DNA of 37,603 nucleotides. Source: Candidatus Bathyarchaeota archaeon (GTDB taxonomy: Archaea; Thermoproteota; Bathyarchaeia; Bathyarchaeales; Bathycorpusculaceae). The notes below the pieces were generated by a model. That model saw only the letters and a program-made list of their open reading frames with translations. It searched no databases and was not told the origin of the DNA. The stretch is taken from assembly GCA_003589585.1 (NCBI GenBank), contig QYYE01000004.1, forward strand, positions 1-37,603, given 5' to 3'. The translations under genes and the position numbers were made by a program. This document shows, piece by piece, positions 7,914 to 12,898 of this stretch; position 1 is the stretch's first letter, and each line of letters starts with the position of its first letter.

Positions 7914-9176
<1,263 letters not shown>

Positions 9177-9179
9177 CTG

Positions 9180-11399
9180 CTATGTTGATGTGAAGCGGTC
9201 GAATGTTGCCAGTGTGCTCATGGAGCCGCAGGAACGGCATTTGTGAAGTTTTCCAAACCAGCTTTTGTTGCAGTTGTCGCAGAAGCTGATGGCTCGGTTA
9301 TAAGTGAAAAACTCCACCTGCTGCCCTTCGATTAGGCGCAAGGTTAAATCTAACAGTGCTTGCGGCGTGTACTCGGTTTCTTGCAGCTCAATGATATCTA
9401 AGGTTCCGCCCGTGGTTAAGCCTTTGATTTTCTGCGCTGTCTCTATGGCTTCAAAGGGCACAGCCAAGGTTTCGCCTGCAGCTTTGACTTGAAGCCTCTT
9501 GGCGGTGGAGTAGTAGGGTTTGTCTCTTGAGCCCGAGAACTTGACCTTGGCGACCCCGTACTTCTCAATGTCCAACTGCGCCAACCGCTCAGACGCTTCA
9601 GGACTGCTTAACAGGACAATGTAGAGGCGTTTTCCATGTTTTCTGCCGACTTTCTGCTTAAACGCCAAAATGTTCTGGGCAACCTCTTCGGCAAATTCTC
9701 GTCCTTCTTTTGAGTGCAAGCTTTTTTCTGTGAAAGCCTCCACGGCTTCCCGAAATCCCGCCAAATTTATAACTCGTGAGCAGTTTTCGAGCCTAAAGTA
9801 GGTGTCTTCCTTGACGCTTTTTAGCAGGAATGGCAAGGCATTTTTCCCGTTTTGCTTTAGAGCGTTGCTTTTTATTCCCAGAGCACGGGCTGCCAACTCG
9901 CACCTTTCTTTGGCGAGGTCAAAGAACTTGTTTTTGTCTCTCTCGCTTTCCAGTACGATTCTGGGCAGGTTGATGGTGACGCAGCCGAGGCAGCCTGTTC
10001 TTAAAGTGTCAGTTTCCCAGTCCTCGGTTAAATCGGGCAACAGCTTGATTCCTGACGCTGAATAGGCAACGTGCTCGTTGTCTTTTTTGGTCATGTTGGC
10101 AAAGTAAACCATGCCCTTCTCAGCTGCCAAGAAGTGGGCTTTTTGCAGGATTGCTTTGGCGTTCTGGTCTGCCAAAGCTTCTTTGTTGATTTTTATAACC
10201 AGTTTGGGGTTAAGCAGAGGCTTTACCGAGCCCTCTTCAGCGTAAACCTCAAGAACAAGCTGGGCTAAAAGCTGGCTCTCTTGGACGTAGTCGCCGTATG
10301 TGCCGAATGTTTTGCCTTCATTGCCGATTGCTTGTTTCTCAGAGAACTGTTTGGGTGTCGAAAGCTCGAGCCCCAAGGTGGCGTCTGCATGCTGGTTTAC
10401 GTTTAATATGAATATGCGCAGGGCTTCCTTCAGCCGCCAGGTTTCCACACCTCTGGCAAATGGGGCAAGGAAAACGTTGAAGTAATTGCAGGTTTGCATT
10501 CCGTTGATTTCTCGGCTGGCATTTAAGAGAACGCCAAAAACCACTGAGAGCGCCGATTCAAGATTGTTTGGCGGTCGCATTGAACTGCGGTGCTTGTTTT
10601 CCAGTTTTAAGCCGTTTCGGAAGAAGAAGCGGAGGTCATGGATAACTTCGCTGGGTTTTAGAACCCAAGTGCCTAAATCATCAATATGGATGGCGCCTGC
10701 GAGGTGAGCGTCAGCTATGTCACGAGGGAAAATGTTGAGAAGCGTGTACTCGCCAAGAACTGTTTGCCCAGCTTTTGTTAGGATAACAGTTGAGTCTTGG
10801 TTTGTGTCTTTGGTTTCTATGGAAGCAGCTACTTCGTGAACGGGCATGCCGACTCTTGTAAGCTTATGGCGGTAGTCTTCATAGCCCTTCTCGACCAAGA
10901 TGCCGTTTACGACTTCGCGGATTAGGGCGGCGGTGAGGTATTTTGTTTTGGATTTGGTTAAGCGTTTTTCCGCTTCTTTGGCTGCTTTCTGCGCCAATTC
11001 AGCTGGGACTTTGGCTTCTTTTATGAGTGAATTGGCGATTTTGTTTGCGTCAAACTCTTCCATGGTTAAATGGGATGTTCGCACGAGCATGCCGCGGGGT
11101 TTGACGGCTTTTTTCTCCACCCGGTCAGCGACATCTAGGACCATTTTACCAAGGTCAGTTAGGAAGTATTTTTTTGCCTCAACATCCGCCTCAACCAAAT
11201 CGGCTTTTAGCATGAATTTTAGGTGATATGCAAATCTGCCTGCGTCTCGGCTGGGGTTCATTTTCAGCTGGTTCATAAGTTCAGAGTAGGAGAGGGCGCT
11301 TTTGTCAAAGAGCAGGTTGAGGATTTGCAGTCTGAGAGGTGAAGAAACGGCTTTAAGCACTTTTACGCCTCGTGCACGGTGCGGCGTCGGATTTACCAT
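9180..11399 (-). CDS. HTH/ATP-cone/NrdD-like protein lacking the glycyl-radical site
   Basis: A 739-residue protein with three parts: an ArsR-like winged helix (about 8-95, LRLQILNLLF), an ATP-cone (about 104-195, the allosteric nucleotide-binding module), and an anaerobic ribonucleotide reductase-like barrel (about 200-704), with the finger-loop region RTGCLGCVTINLPR and the QTCNYFNVFLAPFARG segment. The C-terminal zinc ribbon is present (Cys707, 710, 721, 724). In true class III enzymes the ribbon is followed by R-(I/V)-T-G-Y, whose Gly carries the radical. Here the chain reads R735-F-T-S738-T and stops, so the Gly position is Ser and the loop is absent. The other frames past the stop do not restore it, so this is not a recent frameshift. 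No nrdG activase is adjacent. It is commonly labelled anaerobic reductase, but it is probably not a reductase; a nucleotide-sensing regulator is my inference. Confidence 0.8.
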   Translation of the reverse strand: MVNPTPHRARGVKVLKAVSSPLRLQILNLLFDKSALSYSELMNQLKMNPSRDAGRFAYHLKFMLKADLVEADVEAKKYFLTDLGKMVLDVADRVEKKAVKPRGMLVRTSHLTMEEFDANKIANSLIKEAKVPAELAQKAAKEAEKRLTKSKTKYLTAALIREVVNGILVEKGYEDYRHKLTRVGMPVHEVAASIETKDTNQDSTVILTKAGQTVLGEYTLLNIFPRDIADAHLAGAIHIDDLGTWVLKPSEVIHDLRFFFRNGLKLENKHRSSMRPPNNLESALSVVFGVLLNASREINGMQTCNYFNVFLAPFARGVETWRLKEALRIFILNVNQHADATLGLELSTPKQFSEKQAIGNEGKTFGTYGDYVQESQLLAQLVLEVYAEEGSVKPLLNPKLVIKINKEALADQNAKAILQKAHFLAAEKGMVYFANMTKKDNEHVAYSASGIKLLPDLTEDWETDTLRTGCLGCVTINLPRIVLESERDKNKFFDLAKERCELAARALGIKSNALKQNGKNALPFLLKSVKEDTYFRLENCSRVINLAGFREAVEAFTEKSLHSKEGREFAEEVAQNILAFKQKVGRKHGKRLYIVLLSSPEASERLAQLDIEKYGVAKVKFSGSRDKPYYSTAKRLQVKAAGETLAVPFEAIETAQKIKGLTTGGTLDIIELQETEYTPQALLDLTLRLIEGQQVEFFTYNRAISFCDNCNKSWFGKLHKCRSCGSMSTLATFDRFTST

Positions 11400-11518
11400 G
11401 GTCCCTTTTTCCCCTTAGCTCTCAGATTGGTGCTCACTATTATTTCAACGGCAGAGTTTAAACTTAACTAAGAGTTTATTTATAGCAAACGCTTAATTCG
11501 TAAGAAGCCATATATTTT
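11400..11518. promoter_or_regulatory. Divergent promoter region with direct repeat AGAGTTTA
   Basis: Between the divergent NrdD-like and kinase genes. AGAGTTTA occurs at 11453-11460 and again at 11471-11478, 18 bases apart. The first overlaps the perfect palindrome GTTTAAAC (11456-11463), a TATA-like element for the minus-strand gene. The second runs into TTTATTTATA, a TATA-like element about 35-40 bases before the kinase GTG. Repeats on both promoters could be operator half-sites, possibly for the neighbouring HTH protein; this is inferred. Confidence 0.4.
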
Positions 11519-12898
11519 GTGTCTGCTCATTCTTATCAGAGCACGATTGTGCATTTTTACAGGCTTAAAGGGGTGACTTTCATAAAAGAAAAGGGAGGCA
11601 TAACTCAGGCGATAAGGAAAGCTGCCCGTGAAGCTGAGGGCGCCATACAGAGGATTTCCTATGACAACAAAGAAGACTACAGAAGTTTCTTCCTCGCCTC
11701 CGACATCTCGCAGACCCGCATAGTTGTAGTGTTGCTTGCGGTGACAATCGGGCTTTTTGCCATCAGCGATTACATGATTTTAGGCTTGACGCCAGTCTTC
11801 TATGGGCTTGTGGTTTTGAGGGCAGGGTTAATTGCATATTCCGCTTACCAGATTCGATACATCGGGCAGGTTAAAAACTACCGCTCTTATGACTCATCAA
11901 CCTTCATTTACTTATTCTCCGTTGTGGTAGGCGTATTGCTGGTAAATTTAACGCGCCCTGAAAACTTTCTGCCCCACATAATCGTAATCGACATAGCCAT
12001 CTTCGTCTTCTACTTAACCATCCCAACACGGTTTATCTACCAAGCATTGCCCTCGCTGGTTTTCTCTGGGGGTGAACTCCTGATAATTATGTTTAGTTTC
12101 GGCTCATTTGAGATGCCCGCGCTCATAACAGCCCTTCTCAGCCTAATATTTGTCAACGTTGTTGCAGCGTTAAGTTCTCTGCAGCTTCATTCTTACCGTT
12201 GGCGGATTTTTCAAAACGTTGCGGAGCGCAAAGAGACAGAGCGTTTGGTTGCTATTGGTCAAACTGCTGGCATGATTGGGCATGATATTCGCAATCCTCT
12301 GCAGGCGATTATTAACGAGTTGTTTTTGGCAAAAACGGCTATTGAAAAAACCCCTCATCTTGAGGACAAAACATTAGCATTGGAGAGCATAACCCTAATT
12401 GAGGAACAAACCGATTACATAAGCAAGATAATCTCCGACCTGCAGGATTACGCTCGCCCCTTAAAACCCGAGTACACTCAAGTCGACTTAGAGGAAATCG
12501 TTGACGATATTTTTCAAACCATCAGAATCCCAGAAGCCATCGCTGTAAGAATCCACATGAAAAACGTTCGACAGATAAAGACTGACCCAACCCTAATCAG
12601 GCGTGCCCTAACAAACCTGATTAATAACGCCATGCAAGCCATGCCAAACGGAGGCAAACTTGAGTTAACCGCCTCAAAACTTGATAACAAAGCCGTCATA
12701 AGAGTCTCCGACACGGGAGAGGGTATCCCTGAAGAAATCAAACCTAAACTTTTCACGCCACTAGTCACTACTAAAGCTAAGGGGCAAGGCTTAGGCTTAG
12801 CGGTTGTTAAGCGGCTGGTTGAAGCATTGGACGGCAAAATAACCTTTGAAAGCCAAGAAGGAAAGGGAACCGCCTTCACAATAGAACTCCCAGCCTAA
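11519..12898 (+). CDS. Membrane sensor histidine kinase
   Basis: A 459-residue kinase. The N-terminal third, after about 60 residues, has roughly six membrane helices (about 64-225) and no large extracellular sensor domain. A HisKA-type dimerisation helix follows with the phospho-acceptor His at about residue 255 in GHDIRNPLQAI. The HATPase_c domain shows the N box (NLINNAMQAM), G1 (DTGEGIP) and G2 (GLGLAVVKRL). It should autophosphorylate and pass phosphate to a response regulator, but none is encoded nearby, so it is an orphan kinase. The start could be GTG 11519 (very short leader after TTTATTTATA) or GTG 11573. The signal sensed is unknown; the 6-TM layout suggests a membrane or lipid-soluble cue. 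Confidence 0.9.
   Translation: MSAHSYQSTIVHFYRLKGVTFIKEKGGITQAIRKAAREAEGAIQRISYDNKEDYRSFFLASDISQTRIVVVLLAVTIGLFAISDYMILGLTPVFYGLVVLRAGLIAYSAYQIRYIGQVKNYRSYDSSTFIYLFSVVVGVLLVNLTRPENFLPHIIVIDIAIFVFYLTIPTRFIYQALPSLVFSGGELLIIMFSFGSFEMPALITALLSLIFVNVVAALSSLQLHSYRWRIFQNVAERKETERLVAIGQTAGMIGHDIRNPLQAIINELFLAKTAIEKTPHLEDKTLALESITLIEEQTDYISKIISDLQDYARPLKPEYTQVDLEEIVDDIFQTIRIPEAIAVRIHMKNVRQIKTDPTLIRRALTNLINNAMQAMPNGGKLELTASKLDNKAVIRVSDTGEGIPEEIKPKLFTPLVTTKAKGQGLGLAVVKRLVEALDGKITFESQEGKGTAFTIELPA

Follow-up and report, generated by a model that had tools for sequence, protein, structure and literature searches.

We propose that a gene of Candidatus Bathyarchaeota (9180..11399, minus strand), found in a contig stretch of 37,603 nucleotides that is hereafter called the window, codes for a class III ribonucleotide reductase (RNR) that is catalytically dead and equipped with a winged-helix DNA-binding head, and that this protein belongs to an ancient group of archaeal transcription regulators of RNR genes, a reading to which we assign a probability of roughly 70%. 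We refer to these pseudo-class III RNRs as HTH-NrdD. The regulator NrdR is described as abundant in bacteria and rare in archaea (PMC12176259), which raises the question of how the supply of DNA precursors is controlled in most archaea. HTH-NrdD is a concrete candidate RNR regulator, widespread in one archaeal phylum that includes ammonia oxidizers, and it is of interest for this breadth and for being linked, in aerobes, to class II RNR. As the regulator would be a dead relative of the enzyme that it regulates, it may sense the nucleotide pools through related allosteric sites. Further, class III RNR models pick up HTH-NrdD genes, which in aerobes could be mistaken for genes of an anaerobic reductase.

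Domain architecture of the window protein

The gene is delimited by an ATG-started ORF, Pfam matches and homologs. The initial annotation had read a winged helix, an ATP-cone, an NrdD barrel and a zinc ribbon in one 739-residue chain, which is borne out by the ORF, by Pfam and by the cysteines C707, C710, C721 and C724. Based on Pfam and conservation, the winged helix spans residues 14-92 (11124..11360, on the minus strand like all features of this gene), with the recognition region RDAGRFAYHLK, and the ATP-cone residues 104-195 (10815..11090); the Pfam matches themselves cover residues 14-88 (DUF7347/HTH_5) and 105-177. The HTH_5 match, at 28.5 bits against a cut-off of 22, points to an ArsR-type winged-helix fold, and the nearest solved relative of this head by sequence is HlyU (E 5e-4). 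The NRDD barrel region, from which the catalytic residues are gone, occupies residues 207-735 (9195..10781; Pfam NRDD, E 8.8e-71) as judged from Pfam, alignments and structural matches, and alignments place the zinc ribbon, C707-x2-C710 ... C721-x2-C724, at 9228..9281. With the NCBIfam NrdD equivalog TIGR02487 the protein scores 253.5 bits, under the cut-off of 326. An AlphaFold2 model built from 43 sequences (mean pLDDT 83.6, pTM 0.75), a prediction that the initial annotation had called for, has the NrdD fold, and all 36 of its best PDB matches are class III RNRs, namely those of S. thermophilus, P. copri, T. maritima and T4.

Loss of catalytic residues under purifying selection

Active class III reductases need a glycyl radical. 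The tail of the window protein, TFDRFTST, ends in R735-F-T-S-T (9183..9197), with Ser738 aligned to the radical glycine of the R-x-T-G-Y found in active NrdDs. The earlier reading of this tail as lacking the radical glycine is therefore correct: in related genomes the true NrdDs have R-(I/V)-T-G-Y or R-V-V-G-Y at this position. In the alignments, Glu251 (codon 10647..10649) occupies the column of the first barrel cysteine, E. coli C175, and Ile451 (codon 10047..10049) that of the thiyl-radical cysteine, E. coli C384. Across the order, the glycine, the first barrel cysteine and the E-N-x-N flap motif are absent from all 47 HTH-NrdDs and from none of the 37 true NrdDs; in 39 of these 47 a glutamate replaces the first barrel cysteine, and most of them miss the GGQxVFSS segment. 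In a wider set of 75 HTH-NrdDs (E. coli numbering), C175 is never retained, C384 is retained in five and G681 in three, as against 17/17 true NrdDs, and the zinc-ribbon cysteines persist in about 69 of the 75. In many members from ammonia oxidizers the chain stops at or just past the zinc ribbon, so that the radical loop is wholly absent. HTH-bearing homologs with a C-terminal glycine, which the initial annotation had set against its own reading, do exist in the form of the three members with a glycine in the radical-loop column, but these have neither catalytic cysteine and hence are dead too. At the level of sequence, HTH-NrdD is demonstrably unable to catalyze the reaction of NrdD through the mechanism known for it.

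The reading frame is nonetheless maintained. Six pairs of close relatives gave an overall dN/dS of 0.05-0.13, with values by part of 0-0.06 for the HTH, 0.015-0.06 for the cone and 0.05-0.19 for the core, which we take as the signature of strong purifying selection. A pseudogene, or an artefact of sequencing or assembly, might be suspected from the fragmented source assembly (83% complete, 227 contigs); we reject this possibility, whose probability is negligible, as dN/dS is far below 1, the protein has matches in 162 of the 163 genomes of its order, and the same full-length ORF recurs in well over a hundred genomes, some of them single-contig. In the phylum set, mean pairwise identity reaches 0.47 in the HTH (0.59 within its recognition region) and 0.57 in the cone, but only 0.28-0.30 in the core. 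Such a pattern agrees with a protein that binds DNA and senses nucleotides, and in which the former active site can drift freely. The low conservation of the core likewise makes it very improbable that HTH-NrdD uses the NrdD fold for an enzymatic reaction of another kind: the fold of the barrel has been preserved and some of its residues, for example N477, R480, D610 and Y630, are invariant, as such an enzyme would have it, but these residues are common to true NrdDs and may be structural.

Phyletic spread and origin

Most of the matches in the order are full-length relatives with 41-81% identity. At E<=0.001, 228 of the 257 genomes of the class have a match to the HTH-cone module, although the weak matches in the last families are probably to ATP-cones alone; at E<=1e-12, so do 254 of the 398 genomes in the phylum Thermoproteota, with several families devoid of the module. 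The same domain order is seen in many other families of Thermoproteota, and HTH-NrdD is present in all 19 ammonia-oxidizer genomes examined. Among the best 80 of 221 GTDB records, those with names belong to Bathyarchaeota, and Ca. Bathycorpusculum accounts for some of these. In a maximum-likelihood tree from which the HTH region was left out, 40 HTH-bearing proteins are split from 17 true NrdDs by a single branch with support 100/100; the clade uniting the HTH with loss of the glycine, for which the initial annotation had proposed a search, is thus recovered, and a single origin of the family is the simplest reading of this tree.

Departures from the usual architecture were also observed. Shortened HTH-NrdDs of about 535-620 residues, several of them without the zinc ribbon, occur in AmoA-negative families (L289, L290, L294, L315, L316, L322), and in the ammonia oxidizer G515 (L321:3999-6076) the gene is split into two ORFs of 492 and 184 residues by either a real break or a sequencing error.

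Association with RNR genes of changing type

The strongest evidence that the business of HTH-NrdD is RNR comes from its repeated pairing with non-orthologous RNR genes. In Bathyarchaeia it immediately precedes, on the same strand, intact nrdD genes of types 1, 2 and 3, and in several families the order is HTH-NrdD, in some a glutaredoxin-like gene, nrdD and then a convergent pyrB, with the nrdD slot holding either type 1, type 2 together with the glutaredoxin-like gene (PF00462), or type 3. One genome (G031, L067:2948-5300) has a type 3 nrdD where its congener (G028, L202) has the glutaredoxin-like gene and a type 2 nrdD; what reads as a short remnant of the glutaredoxin gene before this type 3 nrdD suggests an apparent swap of reductases in place. 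In ammonia oxidizers, defined by AmoA (PF12942), the next same-strand gene is nrdJ, coding for class II RNR (TIGR02504, 721 bits against a cut-off of 400), in 19 of 19 genomes from three families, at a distance of 67-435 bp except in G515 with its HTH-NrdD in two ORFs. The same order of HTH-NrdD and nrdJ is found in an AmoA-negative sister (G535, L295). An oxygen-sensitive glycyl-radical reductase would be of little use to aerobic ammonia-oxidizing archaea. These positions directly before working RNR genes in other lineages favor the earlier proposal of a dead reductase turned regulator independently of NrdR, which is also supported by the clade, the NrdD fold and the separate nrdR-nrdD locus described below. 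Extending this, we favor, at slightly better than even odds, a scenario in which a whole class III RNR was converted once, early in Thermoproteota, to a nucleotide-sensing transcription factor that became a main RNR regulator of this phylum, outlived swaps of the enzyme and controls the B12-dependent class II RNR in the aerobic ammonia oxidizers.

In all, 181 loci, not all independent, were read: the neighbor was nrdJ in 20, type 1 nrdD in 17, glutaredoxin with type 2 nrdD in eight and type 3 nrdD in two, while 96 had pyrB only, 29 none of these and nine lay at contig or locus ends. The majority of loci, with those of the window's entire family, therefore have no adjoining RNR gene. In this family the nrdD slot is empty and HTH-NrdD abuts the pyrB-like gene, a convergent, class-wide neighbor for aspartate carbamoyltransferase (8115..9176, plus strand, from the ORF list and loci; its true start may be further in). 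This raises the unlikely but tangible alternative that HTH-NrdD regulates other genes, such as itself, pyrimidine genes including pyrB, or replication genes, with the RNR neighborhood being ancestral and RNR, in the window's family at least, not the principal target. That pyrB is the commonest neighbor, and that the window's family has its nrdD elsewhere with NrdR, are consistent with it. However, the convergent pyrB has no promoter in common with HTH-NrdD at most loci, and the same-strand partner is repeatedly an RNR gene of changing type.

Adjacency to RNR genes, together with the dimeric nature of NrdDs, could also be construed as pointing to protein contact, with the dead NrdD forming the regulatory subunit in a pair with NrdD or NrdJ and the winged helix serving dimerization rather than DNA binding. 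Pseudoenzyme partners are of a known kind. Yet we regard this as improbable: the partner in ammonia oxidizers, NrdJ, belongs to a different fold family at the level of the interface, which makes an NrdD-like heterodimer unlikely, HTH-NrdD persists without an adjoining RNR, and its HTH recognition region is among the most conserved parts of the protein.

Several RNR genes of the genomes surveyed are over-long, with about 250-360 extra residues and a match split mid-way, as inteins would give. These comprise an ORF of 959 residues (L077:3350-6229), nrdD ORFs of 1022-1034 residues (G106:C8, G107:C28) and nrdJ ORFs of 1062-1068 residues (G032, G085, G101, G121).

A separate NrdR circuit in the window genome

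The initial annotation had suggested looking for a separate reductase locus in the same genome, and one is present. A true NrdR is encoded on contig 204 (G000:C204:188-610, L156), and the sequence downstream of it, MKFVLKRDSKLEPFDQERIT..., begins a type 3 nrdD, of which the end of the contig leaves the first residues. The notion that HTH-NrdD is the only reductase of the genome is accordingly rejected; a class II RNR was not found in this 83% complete assembly. Nearly all congeners carry the nrdR-nrdD pair, and the radical-SAM motif of an activase-like gene lies near it in 29 of 30 loci. Upstream of nrdR there are two conserved box-like sites, TAGTGT/ACACTA (L086-L114), which we take to resemble NrdR boxes. 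By its gene content, the window organism also has a conventional NrdR circuit. With the adjacent nrdD gone and an nrdD present elsewhere with a true NrdR, HTH-NrdD in this organism may act on its own gene, on RNR in trans or on other genes.

Predicted mechanism and relationship to known systems

ATP-cones sense ATP and dATP, in reductases as well as in the repressor NrdR. In the regulatory role that we favor, the NrdD scaffold and ATP-cones of HTH-NrdD would read ATP and dATP; dimers would place two winged helices next to paired ATP-cones, and the ATP/dATP state could alter the spacing of the winged helices or the oligomeric state, thereby changing the affinity for DNA. Precedents for such switching exist on both sides of the comparison, as ATP or dATP in the ATP-cone of P. 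copri NrdD shifts the balance between dimers and tetramers (PMC11226230), and the ATP/dATP loading of NrdR decides which oligomer can bind DNA (PMC9110341). The probable targets are the RNR promoter and the promoter of HTH-NrdD itself. HTH-NrdD is probably a dATP-dependent repressor like NrdR, the sign, namely repression at high dATP, being taken by analogy.

HTH-NrdD shares with NrdR (TIGR00244; zinc ribbon and ATP-cone) the joining of an ATP-cone to a DNA-binding domain, a gene location beside RNR genes of different classes (in many lineages, though not in the window's family) and, as proposed here, ATP/dATP-sensing repression. Unlike NrdR, it has an ArsR-like winged helix in place of the N-terminal zinc ribbon and carries a whole pseudoreductase, giving 700-750 residues versus about 150; moreover, the window genome encodes a true NrdR as a separate gene. 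Hence HTH-NrdD probably works like NrdR while being independently built and not a member of that family. From NrdD proper (PF13597, TIGR02487), with which it has the ATP-cone, the barrel fold and the C-terminal zinc ribbon in common, it differs in its N-terminal winged helix and in the loss of the radical glycine, first barrel cysteine and flap motif; by homology it is a descendant of NrdD-type proteins, but not a working member. Its head resembles the ArsR/HTH_5 winged-helix regulators, of which HlyU is the nearest solved one, but for sensing it has a cone and barrel of the RNR type. The match to NCBIfam HTH_metalloreg, at 30.6 bits, is under the cut-off of 55, and there is no cysteine in residues 1-100, and hence no classical ArsR/SmtB metal site.

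Transcription regulators derived from enzymes, with the enzyme fold as the sensor, exist, for example NrtR and the ROK repressors. A search of the open literature found no description of HTH-NrdD, nor did we encounter such a regulator that stems from the catalytic subunit of an RNR.

Candidate DNA elements upstream of HTH-NrdD genes

The initial annotation had singled out a direct repeat, AGAGTTTA at 11453-11460 and 11471-11478, as a potential operator. This did not hold up, as the second copy is not conserved among congeners. Comparison of the congeners instead reveals a conserved 15-bp element, AGTTAAGTTTAAACT (11455..11469, minus strand), which overlaps the repeat and lies 55-69 bases before the start codon. 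The core of the element, TTTAAACT, is found again ahead of HTH-NrdD in the family and, in part, in other families. Exact matches to the element in eight congeners all lie just upstream of HTH-NrdD, and the window genome has a single match even when one mismatch is allowed. We count this conserved element, unique in the genome, in favor of a regulatory role as such, but its confinement to HTH-NrdD's own promoter in the window genome is also a point for the less likely alternative that the protein regulates itself or other genes rather than RNR. Since the element overlaps a TATA-like sequence, it may be a core promoter, an operator or both. A search in the window genus for an operator common to the HTH-NrdD and nrdR-nrdD promoters saw none, the nrdR promoters having TAGTGT...ACACTA instead, and no NrdR-box-like pair was seen at HTH-NrdD's own promoter.

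In several ammonia-oxidizer genomes, words containing TGATC are enriched upstream of HTH-NrdD and nrdJ. ACTGATC is 22-fold enriched there over the remainder of those loci, and one genome (G267) has four copies of TGATC[TCA]AA within 300 bp upstream, compared with 0.42 per kb in sampled intergenic DNA; as the motif was chosen after looking and is absent from one genome (L320), we regard it only as a lead.

In the window, the short intergenic region upstream of HTH-NrdD is shared with a divergent gene (11519-12898, plus strand), whose product resembles a membrane sensor histidine kinase by the motifs HDIRNP and GQGLGL.
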